Made by a program: the position numbers and the translations under genes. A DNA stretch of 64,000 nt. It comes from Leptolyngbya boryana PCC 6306 (lineage in GTDB: Bacteria > Cyanobacteriota > Cyanobacteriia > Leptolyngbyales > Leptolyngbyaceae). Every line of letters begins with the position of its first letter. Positions within the stretch are counted from its first letter, which is position 1. Under the pieces are notes generated by a model. It was not told the DNA's origin. It saw nothing but the letters and a program-made list of their open reading frames with translations, and did not search any database. Location: assembly GCF_000353285.1 (NCBI RefSeq), contig NZ_KB731324.1, forward strand, positions 3,924,577 through 3,988,576. Direction: 5' to 3'. Shown piece by piece: positions 57,991 through 64,000 of this stretch.

Positions 57991-58920
57991 ATGAAAAAAA
58001 TTCTGAGCATTGATGGTGGTGGAATCCGGGGAATTATTCCTGCGCTGGTTCTCGCAGAATTAGAGCAAAAAATTGGCAAGCCGACTTCAGAAATTTTTGA
58101 CTTAATTGCTGGCACTTCAACTGGTGGAATTTTAGCTCTAGCATTGAGCCAAGACGACGGACAAGGAAATCCTCAGTATTCCGCCAAAGATCTGATCCAG
58201 CTCTACGAGCAAGAAGGAAAAAACATTTTCCCTAAATCAGTGTGGCAAGATGTTTCTACCCTGTGTGGTCTAGCAGACGAAAAATATCCCAGAGAAGGCA
58301 TTGATACAGTCCTGGCAAACTACTTTGGCTCGGCTCGGCTCGGCTCATGTCTGACCAAAACGGTAGTCACTGCATATGATATTCAAAATCGTGAACCCCT
58401 CTTTCTAAAAAGCTGGCGACCCGGACATCAATCCATTAAATCGGTTGATGCTGCACGTGCAACTTCGGCGGCTCCGACTTATTTTGCACCTGTGAAAATG
58501 TCTATCGAAAACAAAGATAGAGTGCTGATTGATGGCGGCATTTTCATCAATACGCCGTCGGTGTCTGCGTATGTTGAAGCTTTAAGGATTTTCCCAGAGG
58601 AGAAAGATTTTCTGGTTGTTTCCTTGGGAACAGGTGAGCTAAACCGACCGATTCCGTACCGTCAAGCAAAAGATTGGGGAATCGTCGAGTGGCTCAACCC
58701 CTTGCTGAGTTGTGTGTTTGATGGAGTCTGCGATGCAGCCAACTATCAAATGAGCCTACTACTAGAAGGAAATTATTACCGCCTGCAAACCTGGCTTGAT
58801 AAGGCAGTAGATGAGATGGATAATGTGAGCGATGAAAACATGGCAGCCCTGAAAGCTGAAGCTGCTACCTTGCTCAAAGAGCATCAAGATGACATTCAGA
58901 GACTGTGTAGCATTCTGTAG
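57991..58920 (+). CDS. Patatin-like phospholipase
   Basis: The 309-residue protein has the oxyanion motif GGGIRG, nucleophile Ser43 in GTSTGG and catalytic Asp181 in IDGGIF. AGGGGA precedes ATG 57991. It resembles CapV-type patatins of anti-phage systems as well as housekeeping lipases. No cyclase, ubiquitin-like or E1/E2 gene is adjacent, so a defence role cannot be claimed. It probably hydrolyses acyl lipids. Confidence 0.9.
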   Translation: MKKILSIDGGGIRGIIPALVLAELEQKIGKPTSEIFDLIAGTSTGGILALALSQDDGQGNPQYSAKDLIQLYEQEGKNIFPKSVWQDVSTLCGLADEKYPREGIDTVLANYFGSARLGSCLTKTVVTAYDIQNREPLFLKSWRPGHQSIKSVDAARATSAAPTYFAPVKMSIENKDRVLIDGGIFINTPSVSAYVEALRIFPEEKDFLVVSLGTGELNRPIPYRQAKDWGIVEWLNPLLSCVFDGVCDAANYQMSLLLEGNYYRLQTWLDKAVDEMDNVSDENMAALKAEAATLLKEHQDDIQRLCSIL

Positions 58921-59006: not shown

Positions 59007-59951
59007 TTATTGGGATGAATTAGTAGGTTTACGGCGTAGAGGAAACAGCGATCGTCCTAACAGCGATTGAAAATAGGCTCCACCAACTGTAATTAGAAAG
59101 ACGAAATATGCGATCGCTTGAACCAAATACAAGCGATCGGTATACCCCAACAATGCGCTCAAAATTGAGCCTGGAAACTGTTCAGCAGGCATGATCTTGC
59201 TGAAATTCCACACCATTGGACCTAAAACACAATCTCGATCTTGAGGTTTCGCAAATCGTTCATAGTAAAAACAAAGCGAAGCCGATTTGCGATCGACTTG
59301 AGCTAATGCGTTCATGCCAGCATCAAAATGTCCCAGTGCTGTGACAACCAAGCCAGAAACAATCATCAACAGCAAGATGCCCATAATCATAAAGAACTTC
59401 CGGATATCTAGCCGAACTCCATATCGAAACAGCAGTGCTCCAATACCAGTGGCAAACCCGATACCAGCCAATGCTCCTAGAGTTGGAACGACTCCCTGCT
59501 GAAACTTCCCTGCAATAAATAAAACGGTTTCAAATCCTTCTCGCACAACGGCAAAAAAGATCAGTCCAAAGATCCCCCAACCTGCTTGAGCATCTTGTTT
59601 GATGGTTGATGCGATCGCACCTTCCACATCCTGCTTCAGCGATCGGGCATTCCGAGTCATCCAAATCAGCATCCAACTCAAACAAGCGATCGCAAGCACA
59701 CTAAAACTGGCTTCTAAAAATTGCTCGATCGAAACTCCTGCTGTGCCTGCCTGTTCTACAATCCATCCAAATAACACTCCAATCATTCCACTTGCAGCCA
59801 GCCCAACACCAACGCCAGCCCAAACCCAACCTTTCAAATTCCGTCGATTCGCTTTATTCAGGTATGCCAAAACAATGCCAACAATTAAAGCAGCTTCAAC
59901 ACCTTCACGTAGGGTAATCACAAAGGTAGGGATTGCAGAACTCAGATCCAT
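59007..59951 (-). CDS. FTR1-family iron permease
   Basis: The 314-residue membrane protein has seven predicted helices and two REGxE motifs: TLREGVEAALIVG and VVREGFETVLFIAG, which bind iron. I start at ATG 59951 because GGAG lies 5-8 bases upstream; an in-frame ATG at 59969 is an alternative. It follows the HhH/EfeO-like lipoprotein and the multicopper oxidase on the same strand, so the three form a likely ferroxidase-permease uptake system. Confidence 0.92.
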   Translation of the reverse strand: MDLSSAIPTFVITLREGVEAALIVGIVLAYLNKANRRNLKGWVWAGVGVGLAASGMIGVLFGWIVEQAGTAGVSIEQFLEASFSVLAIACLSWMLIWMTRNARSLKQDVEGAIASTIKQDAQAGWGIFGLIFFAVVREGFETVLFIAGKFQQGVVPTLGALAGIGFATGIGALLFRYGVRLDIRKFFMIMGILLLMIVSGLVVTALGHFDAGMNALAQVDRKSASLCFYYERFAKPQDRDCVLGPMVWNFSKIMPAEQFPGSILSALLGYTDRLYLVQAIAYFVFLITVGGAYFQSLLGRSLFPLRRKPTNSSQ

Positions 59952-59979
59952 AATCACTCCAAATAACATTCAATCCTTA

Positions 59980-60010
59980 GGAGTCAGAGTTTTACAAGAA
60001 CTCTGACTCC
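59980..60010 (-). promoter_or_regulatory. Intercistronic hairpin between the lipoprotein and FTR1 genes
   Basis: GGAGTCAGAGTT and AACTCTGACTCC form a perfect 12-bp stem with a 7-base loop. No T-run follows on either strand. It stands 29 bases before the FTR1 start, close enough to influence processing or relative expression within the operon. Confidence 0.55.
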
Positions 60011-60033
60011 TTGCCACATATAGAATTTAGCTT

Positions 60034-61035
60034 TTAAGAAGCCTTGGCTACCTTTTGAGTGTTGCCCTCAATCTCTTTGACGAGCGCTGAAACCTGATCA
60101 CTGGTTTTAGCAGGAGTTGCAGGAGGTGTAACTGCTGCCCAGGTTGTGGTCAGTTCAGCCATTTTCGTTGAAATGACTTGATGAGCGTCCGGTTGCGTCT
60201 TCAGCATTGCATCAGAAATGCCCTTATAGAGTTCATTTGCATAAAGCACAAAGCCGCGCGAATCCTGGTATTCAATCACTTGAGTAATTTTATTATTTGC
60301 GATCGCGGCTCCATACTCTGAGTTTGCAGTATCTAATAATCCATTGATGACTTGCAAGACAAAGGCAGGATTTTGACGTTGCGATTCGGGTAACGCATTG
60401 ATGGCGGTATCAATTGCCTTGATCGAAGTATCATAGCCAGAAGCAACTTTACTCGCATTTTTTGCACCTGCCTTGACTTCATCTTGCAGTGCAATCAGCG
60501 GATCTTTGAATTCTGGAACTTTGCGATCGTTCAGTTGCTCTTCCACATCGGCATAAATCTCTTCGACAGGATGCCCAATATGAGGTTCTGCTTGATCCGG
60601 CTTTTGCAGGTCAAGTAGCTCTTTTGCAACATAGAGATGCCCTTTCATCAAACCGAGCTTCGTCATGTAATCAACATCTCTGGCTTCACCTTCGAGTTTA
60701 ATATCCTCGATCGTCACCATGTCTTTGATTTGATCAAACTGAGCTTGATTGATCACATTTTTAGCAACTAACTCTTCCGTTTTTCCATAGGGACGACTTG
60801 CTTGGATTTTATTAGAAAGCGCAGGAACACCGAGCTTTGCTTCTAGCTTATCTAGCTCGGACAAGATCGCACTGTTAATGTTAATCTTTCTGCCGCCATG
60901 TGCAGGCTGGCTCGCGGTTGTCGTTGTTGTAGGAGCAGAGCTTGTATTGTTCGCAGTCTGAGAACTACAGGCGATGAGCACACTCAATCCTAGAGCGCAT
61001 AGGAAATAAGCAAGGAATTTAAGTTGTTTCAGCAT
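60034..61035 (-). CDS. Lipoprotein with PsbU-like HhH domain and EfeO-like helical domain
   Basis: The 333-residue protein has a lipobox (SVLIACS, Cys23) and a Thr/Ser/Ala-rich linker. Residues about 50-110 (ININSAILSELDKLEAKLGV, PALSNKIQASRPYGKTEELV) form a helix-hairpin-helix domain similar to secreted ComEA/PsbU types. The rest is helical, with the motif GHPVEEIYADVEEQL containing an HxxE pattern seen in EfeO/imelysin-type proteins. Placement between a multicopper oxidase and FTR1 suggests an iron-binding or delivery role. The exact family was not recognised with certainty. Confidence 0.75.
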   Translation of the reverse strand: MLKQLKFLAYFLCALGLSVLIACSSQTANNTSSAPTTTTTASQPAHGGRKININSAILSELDKLEAKLGVPALSNKIQASRPYGKTEELVAKNVINQAQFDQIKDMVTIEDIKLEGEARDVDYMTKLGLMKGHLYVAKELLDLQKPDQAEPHIGHPVEEIYADVEEQLNDRKVPEFKDPLIALQDEVKAGAKNASKVASGYDTSIKAIDTAINALPESQRQNPAFVLQVINGLLDTANSEYGAAIANNKITQVIEYQDSRGFVLYANELYKGISDAMLKTQPDAHQVISTKMAELTTTWAAVTPPATPAKTSDQVSALVKEIEGNTQKVAKAS

Positions 61036-61133
61036 GATGGTGTTGATGAAGACAGAAAGAGATCGTTTTATAGGAAAAAACCTATCTCAGGGATTGAATT
61101 TAGTCATTGTGTAGCTTAAGTAGAATCTTTGTC

Positions 61134-61148
61134 AATAATGTGATTATT
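61134..61148 (-). promoter_or_regulatory. Possible Fur-type site upstream of the lipoprotein
   Basis: AATAAT-GTG-ATTATT forms an inverted repeat of Fur-box type, 99 bases upstream of the lipoprotein start. It agrees only partly with the 19-bp consensus. The position fits an internal promoter repressed by iron. Confidence 0.35.
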
Positions 61149-61156
61149 AAGTTCAG

Positions 61157-62158
61157 CTAAGCTTTTGAATTCGCAATCACCTCAAACGCGCCCATGCAGC
61201 CAGATTCCGCGATGTAGTCTTGATGCGGATGGAACATAAATTTGCCCGTGTGATGAAAACTAAACTCTAAAATATGCCGTTCTGCGGTTCCCATCGTAAT
61301 CACATCGGTTTCTTCACTCGGTTCTAAGGTGCGTCCTGTGCGATAGACCCGGAACATGTTGGCATGGAGATGAAACGTTGCAACTGGATCGAATTCGATG
61401 AGATTCAAGACATAGAGCCGAATCAGTTGATCTTGCTGGATGGGAATTGGATGCTTCATGTAGTAATCCGGCAAGCCATTGAAAGCAAAAAGCTCGTTTT
61501 TACGATCGTCATTGACGTCATAGCCTGCCATGATCAACACGATTTCATCGGCAGGCGGTCGCGGAGTCGGGGGATCAACAATGAACATACCGTATAGACC
61601 TTTGCCTACATGTCGCGAGATTGGCTCGATATGACAGTGATAAAGATGGACTCCAAATGGCTCTGCGTCAAATTCGTAGATCTGAACAGCATTGTGTTTG
61701 ACAGGTTTTACACCATCCATTTCAGCCGAGTGGACTCCGTGAAAGTGAAGTGAATGCGAGTGCCCGGCTTTGTTGTAGAAAATCACGCGAATGCGATCGC
61801 CTTGGGTTGCCCGAAAGGTTGGTCCTGGAACTCGTCCGTTCAGATTCCAAGTGACAAAAGACGTGGATTGATTGAGTTGCAGCGCCGAGGTGCGGGCTTC
61901 GACTCGAAATTCTCTAACCGTTCGCCCATTTTCCTGAGTAACTGTGCCGTAATCAAAATCGCGCAAAACAGCCGCCGGATTCGCTGCATCTTTGGTTTGA
62001 GGAATGTCAAACGGTGGAACAATCACGTTTTGACGGTTTTTTGACTGAGCGAGCAGGTTGATTCCAAAAGCTGAGCCAGCGAGTCCTACACCGGATAACA
62101 GCCCTAATTGGATCAATTGTCGTCGGCTTAAATGTTGAAAAAGATTAGAAGCTGGCAT
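61157..62158 (-). CDS. Two-domain multicopper oxidase, Tat-exported
   Basis: The 333-residue protein starts with a twin-arginine signal (SRRQLIQLGL and hydrophobic stretch). Domain 1 has HFHGVH and HLYHCHIEPISRHVGKGLYG, which includes the type 1 copper Cys-His pair. Domain 2 has FHLHANMF and MFHPHQDYIAESGC, where the first residue after His is Pro instead of Cys, so only the trinuclear-type ligands remain. This pattern suggests a type-C two-domain oxidase with one type 1 copper. With FTR1 downstream it may oxidise ferrous iron. Nitrite reductase is less likely given the neighbours. Confidence 0.88.
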   Translation of the reverse strand: MPASNLFQHLSRRQLIQLGLLSGVGLAGSAFGINLLAQSKNRQNVIVPPFDIPQTKDAANPAAVLRDFDYGTVTQENGRTVREFRVEARTSALQLNQSTSFVTWNLNGRVPGPTFRATQGDRIRVIFYNKAGHSHSLHFHGVHSAEMDGVKPVKHNAVQIYEFDAEPFGVHLYHCHIEPISRHVGKGLYGMFIVDPPTPRPPADEIVLIMAGYDVNDDRKNELFAFNGLPDYYMKHPIPIQQDQLIRLYVLNLIEFDPVATFHLHANMFRVYRTGRTLEPSEETDVITMGTAERHILEFSFHHTGKFMFHPHQDYIAESGCMGAFEVIANSKA

Positions 62159-62247
62159 CGCAGATTTTGAGAATAAACGAGAAGTCGATCGCTCAAACTT
62201 CGTCGCTCAAAATTATCAATTATTCTGGTTCTGGAATCAAGTGTATT

Positions 62248-62257
62248 AATAATTATT
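62248..62257 (-). promoter_or_regulatory. Possible Fur-type site upstream of the multicopper oxidase
   Basis: AATAATTATT (in context GACAATAATTATTAATAC on the minus strand) is a palindrome lying 90 bases upstream of the oxidase start. It matches about 12 of 19 consensus Fur positions by eye. AT-rich DNA makes chance matches common. Confidence 0.35.
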
Positions 62258-62417
62258 GTCAGTAATGTTTGTGAAAAGCTCAGTCTTTCCGATTTCTAAC
62301 GTGCTTGCAGTCAACTTTTGATGCCGATCAAATTTGATCCCGAATCAAGTCAAGCGGACTGATTCGGGAGACTGAACGGGATCACTAGAGTAGACTTTAA
62401 CCAAAGCAAATCTATTT

Positions 62418-64000
62418 CTATCGATCGCGTTTTACCTGAGCAACTTTCTGAGAAATTTCAGGATTGTACAGCCGCAAATAGTTCCAATAGTTACCGAGCA
62501 CTGCTTTCACATATCCATAGGTTTCAGGATAAGGAATCGCTTCAACAAACTCATCTGGATCTTGCGATTTTGCTTTGCCAAGCCAGCCTGCAACTGCACC
62601 AGGCCCAGCATTATAGCTTGCTACGGCTAGCATCGAATTGTTGTTATACTCCAAATGCGTATGATCCAAATACCAGGTTCCAAACTGAATACTCGTTTCA
62701 GGATCACTGAGTTTGTACTCTTTCACCTTGATATTATTTGCAATGAAAGCTCCCGTCTCAGGCATCACCTGCATCAATCCCACAGCACCCACACTCGATT
62801 TGATATCTGGCTCAAATCGGGACTCTTGCCGAATCAAAGCTGTCACGAGCATCGGATTCATTTGCCGTTGCTGTGACCAGTTTTCAATGTAATTCACAAA
62901 CGGAAAAGGATACAGTGCTTGCCAATACGCAGGCTGTTTTCTCAATTGTTCATACTGAGCTTTTTCTTCTGCTTTTTCGCGATCGCGCAGACTCCCAATC
63001 ATATACAGTCCGTCTAGATTTTCGCCCACACCCAATCGCATCACACCATCGGTAAACTGTTCGGCGATCGAAGGTTGAACTCGATTCCGAAATTCAATCT
63101 GCCAATGCGACCAAGCATCGCGTTCTTGACCTAACTGATAAAGTTCTTTTAGCGCTGGAGATCCGGCTGGTAATTCGGCTCGGAGACTAGGTTTTTCTAC
63201 TTTTGGATTCAGCGATCGTACCGTATTGAAGTCGCCGACATTCCAGCCCAAAATTGCAGCCGATCGCCAAGCATAATAAGACTCATAATGCTCACTGAGC
63301 ACTTTCTGAAACAGTTGGGCTGCTTGATCATTGTCGCCCAATTTTTGTGCCCATTTACCCGCCCAGAATCCAGCTTCAGCGGCAACTTCACTGGTCGGAT
63401 TGTTCGTCAGAACTGGCTCTGCCCACTGTTTTGCCAGTTTGATATTGCCTGCTTTGGCAGCTTGCTGAGCATAAGTCCAGCGCATTTCTGCGGCAGCATC
63501 GGATTGAGCATATTGAGTCAAAACCAACTGACGAACTTGAGCCGCTGTCTTTTCGCTTTTCATTTTGTCGAGGAGTTTTGACTTCTCAACTAAGGCAGTC
63601 GGCGCACGATCGGGAAAATTCTGAGCAATTTGATCCAAATAAGCGATTGCGGTTTGCGGCGTTTCTGCTAACTGAGCCAACCGAGTCAAGGCTAATCCAG
63701 CTTCATCCGACTGCGGAAATTGTTGAATCATTTGGCGGTAGCGTTGCTCTCCCCCCGGCTTGCCGCTGAGATGTAATCCTCTCGCAGATCGATAAGCCGT
63801 TAAGGGAGTTTGAGGCGCGCGCGAATACGCGATCGCACCTTTGTCATACACTTGATTTTCCCAGTATCCAAATGCGATCGCGTCCCAATCTTCAGGCTTT
63901 AACTGGCTACCAAACTCGGCAACCAATTTATCCATTAATGCCGTATACCCGTCGCTGGTGATGCCATATTTCGCAACCAGCATCAGCAATGGAAGCTGTT
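62418..64000 (-). CDS. Soluble lytic murein transglycosylase, partial
   Basis: The frame continues past the right edge, so the N terminus is missing; 527 residues are visible. A superhelical TPR-like region (about residues 40-340, repeats rich in Ala, Gln and Trp) is followed by the GH23 lytic transglycosylase domain: ALIRQESRFEPDIKSSVGAV with catalytic Glu in RQES, GLMQVMPETG, and AVASYNAGPGAV. It cleaves peptidoglycan in the periplasm. The signal peptide would lie outside the window. Confidence 0.93.
   Translation of the reverse strand, partial: QLPLLMLVAKYGITSDGYTALMDKLVAEFGSQLKPEDWDAIAFGYWENQVYDKGAIAYSRAPQTPLTAYRSARGLHLSGKPGGEQRYRQMIQQFPQSDEAGLALTRLAQLAETPQTAIAYLDQIAQNFPDRAPTALVEKSKLLDKMKSEKTAAQVRQLVLTQYAQSDAAAEMRWTYAQQAAKAGNIKLAKQWAEPVLTNNPTSEVAAEAGFWAGKWAQKLGDNDQAAQLFQKVLSEHYESYYAWRSAAILGWNVGDFNTVRSLNPKVEKPSLRAELPAGSPALKELYQLGQERDAWSHWQIEFRNRVQPSIAEQFTDGVMRLGVGENLDGLYMIGSLRDREKAEEKAQYEQLRKQPAYWQALYPFPFVNYIENWSQQRQMNPMLVTALIRQESRFEPDIKSSVGAVGLMQVMPETGAFIANNIKVKEYKLSDPETSIQFGTWYLDHTHLEYNNNSMLAVASYNAGPGAVAGWLGKAKSQDPDEFVEAIPYPETYGYVKAVLGNYWNYLRLYNPEISQKVAQVKRDR

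Follow-up and report, generated by a model that had tools for sequence, protein, structure and literature searches.

A candidate iron-uptake cluster of multicopper oxidase, lipoprotein and FTR1 permease genes in Leptolyngbya boryana

Yeast iron uptake pairs a multicopper oxidase, Fet3p, with an FTR1-type permease, Ftr1p, that bears REGxE motifs (PMC7676907, PMC9174327), and in B. subtilis EfeB serves as the oxidase of Fe2+, EfeO as the acceptor of the ferric ion and EfeU as its importer (PMC3832793). A stretch of 64,000 nucleotides from Leptolyngbya boryana PCC 6306, referred to as the window, carries three adjacent genes for a multicopper oxidase (MCO), a lipoprotein and an FTR1/EfeU-family permease (FTR1) that recall both of these systems. 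An earlier note, made from the sequence of the window, had proposed that they form an iron-uptake cluster of three parts, the middle protein being unusual, and the conserved neighborhood described below supports that proposal. Statements on published systems refer throughout to the passages of the cited sources that treat them.

The yeast oxidase has three domains, whereas the MCO of the window has two and a signal for twin-arginine translocation (Tat); the locus also differs from the yeast system in its extra, putatively iron-carrying lipoprotein and in the length of its FTR1, which is about 320 amino acids (aa). The cluster is most likely a bacterial counterpart of copper-dependent iron uptake in yeast. 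With EfeUOB(M) systems it shares an EfeU/FTR1 permease accompanied by two exported proteins, one helical and the other an oxidase. It differs in having an MCO where the heme peroxidase EfeB stands, the open reading frames (ORFs) at the locus being those of the MCO, the lipoprotein, FTR1, a transglycosylase and a patatin-like protein, with no EfeB among them. Furthermore, the lipoprotein lacks both the GxHxxE motif and a cupredoxin domain and instead has a helix-hairpin-helix (HhH) domain, and FTR1 falls under the cut-off of the EfeU equivalog model NF041756 (192.8 vs. 255 bits). The HhH fold appears to be shared with PsbU- and ComEA-type proteins; here it forms the N-terminal domain of an FTR1-adjacent lipoprotein.

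Among cyanobacteria, Synechocystis cFTR1 (slr0964) was reportedly treated by Xu et al. in 2016. The name FTR1 is used for slr0964 (PMC11221513), and cyanobacterial cFTR1 imports Fe3+ after a re-oxidation that is ascribed to oxygen (PMC7676907). The resemblance lies in a cyanobacterial FTR1 permease for Fe3+; the difference is that re-oxidation is ascribed to oxygen there, whereas here an MCO gene adjoins the permease gene. The predicted EfeU-MCO arrangement of Leptospirillum likewise sets a bacterial FTR1 beside a copper protein proposed as its oxidase, but that protein is a hypothetical cupredoxin resembling oxidase subunit II, accompanied by a kelch protein, and no lipoprotein of the present kind is reported in the passages on that system (PMC2631029). 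The open-access literature that was searched gave no account of the lipoprotein and none of an MCO clustered with FTR1 in a cyanobacterium, and in the main text of the Nodularia spumigena CCY9414 genome paper none of the terms FTR1, multicopper, iron permease, ferroxidase and EfeU occurs (PMC3610870).

Conservation and descent of the cluster

The gene cluster is real, conserved and iron-related, and its function is read from sequence, neighborhood and regulation. As the earlier note had stated, the three genes run in one direction. Their order is MCO, lipoprotein, FTR1, and by ORF coordinates 121 bases separate the first two and 64 the last two (Table 1). In a survey of 386 genomes of the cyanobacterial phylum from 143 genera, with match limits given as E values set per search, the lipoprotein was found in 71 genomes (46 genera), the MCO likewise in 71 (48 genera) and FTR1 in 108 (60 genera). 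Lipoprotein and MCO occur together in 66 genomes (Fisher 6e-62, kinship ignored), which leaves five of 71 genomes with a lipoprotein and no MCO and five of 71 with the reverse; lipoprotein and FTR1 coincide in 61. Locus L098, which has no tblastn match to the lipoprotein, was excluded from the tallies of co-occurrence, neighbor clusters and neighbor counts, and L100 and L101, matched through the HhH domain alone in proteins of about 590 aa, are probably unrelated.

The neighborhood is also evident among the best 80 of 338 loci from named genomes, a set that overlaps in part with the genomes of loci L031-L101. Of these 80 loci, 78 have FTR1 and 73 the MCO at a distance of no more than 4 kb from the lipoprotein gene and on its strand; one of the two loci without FTR1 and one of the seven without MCO have no room for it. 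The closest lipoproteins among the named genomes are those of Leptolyngbya sp. Prado105 (83%) and Cyanobacteria bacterium FACHB-63 (82%), with Phormidium tanganyikae (81%) also among the nearest. In the neighborhoods of all lipoprotein matches, every FTR1 match lies 933-1989 bases downstream of the start of the lipoprotein match and on the same strand.

The lipoprotein exists in two forms. Where it consists of the HhH and C-terminal domains (form 1), FTR1 adjoins in 45 of 46 loci, the exception (L063) being at a contig edge. Where it consists of the C-terminal domain only (form 2), FTR1 adjoins in two of 23 loci: L077, which is split by the contig origin and has its HhH piece at the opposite end of the same contig, and L096, a gene remnant. 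Of the 23 form-2 loci, 18 have the MCO alongside. Treating MCO, lipoprotein and FTR1 as one fixed unit was rejected, because the MCO-lipoprotein pair occurs without FTR1 and FTR1 often occurs without the pair. The core is the pair of MCO and lipoprotein, and FTR1 is a partner added in one lineage.

On the tree of C-terminal domains, the HhH/FTR1 group takes four changes against a shuffled mean of 17.4. Inside that group, L076 (SH-aLRT 91, not starred) has neither the HhH domain nor an adjacent FTR1 and apparently lost both jointly. The 47 linked FTR1 proteins form one group (SH-aLRT 95) together with three unlinked ones, which keep a ferritin-like gene nearby, and the branch next to the linked group is L227, an FTR1 whose neighbor is a canonical EfeO of the M75 family. 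This pattern is read here as an FTR1-ferritin pair joining the MCO-lipoprotein pair in one lineage, the HhH domain coming with them.

The three proteins

The MCO scores above the Pfam cut-offs for Cu-oxidase_3 and Cu-oxidase_2. In an alignment of 30 of the 58 MCO ORFs, all 30 relatives have a twin arginine close to the N-terminus, and 11 His and one Cys position (135, 138, 140, 143, 174-176, 183, 263, 265, 310, 312), the complete set expected to ligate copper, are invariant. Cys175 and His183 belong to the likely type 1 copper site of the N-terminal domain, while the C-terminal domain has HPH where HCH would stand. Among solved structures, 3gdc (E 2.8e-83) comes closest, followed by 7rab (E 2.2e-74). 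The Tat-exported two-domain oxidase of the earlier note is borne out by these features. A second copy of the MCO exists elsewhere in this genome (G000:C3:378986-379903, 46% identity), with one TGA within the matched stretch.

FTR1 matches Pfam PF03239 with 183 bits (cut-off 25.3) and carries the two REGxE motifs that had been noticed, REGVE (aa 21) and REGFE (aa 143); it is also under the TIGR00145 cut-off (208.1 vs. 303.8 bits). Two REGxE motifs are found in all 47 linked relatives and in 33 of 40 unlinked FTR1 proteins, the latter set being made up of 39 of the 47 lipoprotein-free FTR1 genomes and the second FTR1 of this genome. An inner ATG at 59951 may be the true start codon: for 35 of the 46 linked relatives the alignment begins at aa 7. 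This genome has a second FTR1 (L263, G000:C1:2714680-2715513), which is 54% identical and has no lipoprotein, MCO or ferritin match nearby.

The lipoprotein at the center of the cluster belongs to an unnamed family. A lipobox-like LIAC with Cys23 is visible in its sequence, and a search of family databases, which the earlier note had called for, gave no match to any unrelated family in Pfam or NCBIfam. An alignment of 66 of the 71 loci with the window protein served for the comparisons. The PsbU-like HhH domain that the earlier note had noticed finds support as a real domain: HHH_3 reaches 24.4 bits in the window protein, slightly less than its cut-off of 27, and with E values of at most 0.1 (5.4e-8 in the best case) it is matched by 46 of the 66 members of the family. 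By structure, Foldseek finds PsbU 4yuu_U2 with a probability of 0.98 and an E of 1.5, and the ComEA-related 2duy aligns over 62 residues (Z 9.4, root-mean-square deviation 2.0). Comparison with a PsbU profile, built from the 15 filter-passing ORFs of 21 loci, gives a probability of 51% and a P of 1.5e-4, with no control family.

AlphaFold2 models the full-length lipoprotein with a pLDDT of 87.9 and a pTM of 0.78, and the C-terminal domain alone with 97.2 and 0.93; the domain is predicted to form eight long helices in two groups of four. Conserved within it are H133, the motif H152-x-x-H155-P-x-x-E159, which is kept as HxxHPxxE in 64 of 66 lipoproteins, and an EYQDSRGF loop (aa 255-262), and we infer that H133, H152, H155, E159 and this loop are candidate metal ligands. 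The EfeO motif GxHxxE, as defined in PMC3143127, occurs in none of the 66. EfeM has its metal sites at an HxxE motif and an acidic loop (PMC9174327); a cluster of His and Glu residues and an acidic loop are also present in the lipoprotein, but its motif differs. Peptidase_M75 has no Pfam match in the window lipoprotein and matches two of the 66 family members with E values no higher than 0.1 (0.0018 in the best case, 18.3 bits vs. a cut-off of 23.5). The EYQDSRGF loop aligns locally with the acidic-loop region of M75 (P 0.006-0.008, with no unrelated families as control). Filing the C-terminal domain as EfeO/M75 was not accepted, with GxHxxE absent, the Pfam score under its cut-off and a profile probability of 5-6%. 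Of the EfeO-like HxxE domain originally described, the conserved HxxHPxxE and a suggestive likeness of fold stand, while the canonical motif and the M75 match do not.

An alternative possibility is that the lipoprotein is a structural or assembly factor, for example in copper loading of the MCO or in PsbU-like scaffolding, rather than an iron carrier. In favor of such a role, the lipoprotein has no relative with proven metal binding, it lacks the canonical EfeO motif, and the EfeO comparison is weak: when the Foldseek candidates were re-aligned, general helical bundles ranked highest (Z up to 12.0 and 11.5) and fitted the single bundles equally or better, and no EfeO-family chain is among the 50 rows listed, which excludes nothing. 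Nevertheless, the first Foldseek hits of the C-terminal domain are EfeO 7wgu (probability 0.94), EfeM 7q1g (0.96) and Algp7 3at7 (0.72), at E values of 0.047 to 0.52 and TM scores of 0.36-0.40. The distribution of the two families also speaks against an assembly factor, in that M75 proteins occur in eight of 117 cyanobacterial genomes, none of which has the lipoprotein. PF09375 has no match in this genome. Finally, cyanobacterial M75 proteins and short lipoproteins of the family share GGEGGE linkers (four of eight M75 proteins, 10 of 66 lipoproteins) and partly a KLWxGxGA leader (four of eight and two of 66, respectively), and a protein of Indioceanicola has both. These common linkers and leaders hint that the M75 EfeO and lipoprotein domain types are used in one setting. 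A structural or assembly role is considered unlikely.

In their long form, GGEGGEGG, the linkers were seen in lipoproteins L081, L083, L085-L087 and L091-L095, in M75 EfeO proteins L184 and L186-L188 and in L222:6755-7642. They come partly with a KLWxGxGAYLL leader and are common to two exported iron-related domain families that differ in other respects and to an alphaproteobacterial relative; linker and leader are perhaps a common export or anchoring module.

Control regions and iron-related neighbors

Fur-type boxes were scored against a 7-1-7 consensus, TGATAATnATTATCA, over 14 positions and counted at a score of at least 11/14. Upstream regions were thinned solely for identical last 150 bases, so that related sequences are counted repeatedly. 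Boxes were present in 62.6% of 123 MCO upstream regions vs. 6.1% of shuffled ones and in 51.4% of 140 lipoprotein upstream regions vs. 5.4%, with none in 118 FTR1 upstream regions, which may contain coding sequence, vs. 2.2%. A second scoring by the published Anabaena FurA consensus of 19 positions (PMC4005646), counted at a score of at least 14/19, gave 29.3% for the MCO, 24.3% for the lipoprotein and 3.4% for FTR1, with shuffled values of 9.3, 7.8 and 4.1%, respectively. A different element, TTGATAAAnnnTnTCATTA, recurs before the lipoprotein gene in Nostoc-type genomes (L040, L044, L048, L050-L055 and others) and is unlike the MCO box.

The second Fur-type repeat of the earlier note, at 61134, was rejected as a conserved element, since the four closest relatives (L102, L103, L104 and L107) do not keep it. 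What they keep at its site is the promoter-like TTGACA-18-CACAAT. By eye, TTGACA with a like-placed second hexamer is present in nine of the 10 relatives for which the MCO-lipoprotein gap was shown, and the exact TTGACA in 42 of 140 lipoprotein upstream regions. Because of this conserved promoter, the lipoprotein and FTR1 genes need not depend on the MCO promoter alone, and they may be transcribed separately from the MCO. The perfect hairpin noted before FTR1 was found again. Its core, with 12-base arms, occurs at a single place in the genome, and a dispersed repeat was therefore rejected as its source as far as exact copies are concerned. Perfect stems of at least eight occur in 25 of 116 lipoprotein-FTR1 gaps, and one of these 25 has at least four T in the next seven bases; no claim is made for a terminator or attenuator as a general feature of the gap.

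Genes related to iron recur around the cluster. Of 71 loci, 37 have a ferritin-like gene between the lipoprotein and FTR1 genes (tested examples reach 65.7 and 54.8 bits vs. PF00210); 10 of 47 FTR1 loci, the window included, have none there. A ferritin-like gene is also near 15 of the 40 unlinked FTR1 genes. An Fe2+-dependent dioxygenase is found near form-2 loci (seven of 71 loci; the one tested, NF003974, 307.5 vs. 143 bits), a porin cluster occurs in nine of 71 loci, two of them with FTR1 (the one tested, "iron uptake porin" NF033921, 517.8 vs. 100), and a ferric-reductase-like protein stands between MCO and lipoprotein in four of 71 (the one tested, PF01794, 47.8 vs. 28). Outside the cyanobacteria, two of 72,556 plasmid records match the lipoprotein domain. 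In Roseovarius an annotated Fe2+-dependent dioxygenase directly follows the gene, and in Indioceanicola a CCP_MauG protein with a Cupredoxin_1 domain, the Pfam family (PF13473) that is also listed for EfeO (PMC8209445), begins three bases after it. In Nostoc-type genomes, the cluster often has a MobA-like gene and genes resembling those of cobalt transport (assigned to CbiM/N/Q/O by eye) at its sides (L038, L039, L046, L051, L057, L071-L073 and others; neighbor clusters 4-9 and 15), and one neighbor tested is a Peripla_BP_2 protein; the cobalt-type genes do not speak for iron.

The neighbors and control regions bear on a second alternative, protection from iron, in which MCO and lipoprotein would oxidize and sequester any surplus of Fe2+ (or Cu+) in the periplasm, with FTR1 or the ferritin-like protein clearing the product and import as a by-product. 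The frequent ferritin-like gene fits such a function, as do the 18 of 71 loci in which the MCO-lipoprotein pair has no adjacent FTR1. On the other hand, Fur-type boxes before the MCO and lipoprotein genes suggest induction when iron is scarce, and FTR1 permeases with REGxE motifs are importers (PMC7676907, PMC9174327), which makes protection quite unlikely as the main function.

A putative ferroxidase-carrier-permease importer

The cluster is probably a cyanobacterial iron importer composed of ferroxidase, carrier and permease, the chemistry and the docking being inferred. In the periplasm, the MCO would oxidize Fe2+ to Fe3+, the role played elsewhere by EfeB or Fet3. The lipoprotein would bind Fe3+ on its conserved His/Glu/Asp surface, as EfeO does, and pass it to FTR1, which would import it as an EfeU-type permease. 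The HhH domain could act as an adaptor that docks the carrier to FTR1; such a docking domain is suggested because its association with FTR1 is near-exclusive and because DNA binding is unlikely in a periplasmic setting. Without HhH, the MCO-lipoprotein pair stands with other iron genes, and it would have gained the HhH domain on joining the FTR1-ferritin pair.

Several observations weigh against the importer as proposed. FTR1 occurs without the lipoprotein in 47 of 108 genomes, and the association of HhH with FTR1 rests on few evolutionary events, the loci being far from independent because four changes on the tree account for the group. Kinship of the lipoprotein to EfeO is unproven, the fold likeness being suggestive: profile comparison of its C-terminal domain with M75 gives a probability of 4.9-6%, and Foldseek gives no match with E <0.001. 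In the window, the Fur-type repeat that had been placed near 62248, before the MCO, holds by the 7-1-7 consensus (12/14) and is unremarkable by that of FurA (12/19, with a shuffled mean of 12.2), and the lipoprotein upstream region is without a good Fur box (10/14 and 12/19). Lastly, relatives of the MCO are found in 131 plasmid records of many unrelated bacteria outside the lipoprotein/FTR1 system, and thus the MCO family is not iron-specific.

These plasmid relatives would suit an MCO whose substrate is copper or something else (in copper tolerance or in oxidation of Mn2+ or organics) and a neighborhood of shared regulation rather than one machine, as would its best NCBIfam models (those of copper nitrite reductase and of oxidases for copper resistance, each scoring far under its cut-off) and the genomes in which MCO or lipoprotein stands alone, but the near-perfect pairing of the two and the iron-related neighbors in several independent arrangements across two phyla make this very unlikely.

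Beyond the importer itself, there is about an even chance that the lipoprotein represents a new family of periplasmic iron carriers, found in cyanobacteria and some alphaproteobacteria and interchangeable in function with EfeO, and that its HhH docking module was acquired on joining the FTR1-ferritin pair to yield a line that oxidizes, carries, imports and stores iron. If true, such cyanobacteria would re-oxidize iron for FTR1 by an enzyme and not by free oxygen. Iron limits cyanobacterial growth, and the cluster suggests an enzyme-coupled, copper-dependent route of uptake in those cyanobacteria that carry it; the link between HhH domain and permease would be a clean case of a transport carrier gaining a docking domain specific to its partner.

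Table 1. Features of the locus, in positions of the window.
Feature	Position	Strand	Basis or remark
MCO, two-domain, twin-arginine (Tat-type) signal	61157-62158	-	333 aa; Pfam, ligand positions
Lipoprotein, unnamed family, HhH and two four-helix bundles	60034-61035	-	333 aa; lipobox-like LIAC, Cys23
HhH domain of lipoprotein, PsbU/ComEA-like, aa 49-107	60715-60891	-	HHH_3, Foldseek, profile comparison
C-terminal double four-helix-bundle domain of lipoprotein, aa 116-333	60037-60690	-	Conserved residues, AlphaFold2
FTR1/EfeU-family permease, two REGxE motifs	59007-59969	-	320 aa; likely start 59951
Fur-type box upstream of MCO, TGACAATAATTATTA	62247-62261	-	12/14 positions of TGATAATnATTATCA
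Promoter-like TTGACA-18-CACAAT upstream of lipoprotein gene	61106-61135	-	Sequence; kept in relatives
Perfect inverted repeat, 13-nucleotide arms, 7-nucleotide loop, between lipoprotein and FTR1 genes	59979-60011	.	
Lytic transglycosylase, flanking gene	62418-63989	-	
Patatin-like phospholipase, flanking gene	57991-58920	+	

Of the two flanking genes, the patatin-like phospholipase is close to CBASS effectors, with 193.7 bits for the NCBIfam model CBASS_lipase (cut-off 200) and a PADLOC phospholipase effector match at E 3.3e-69.

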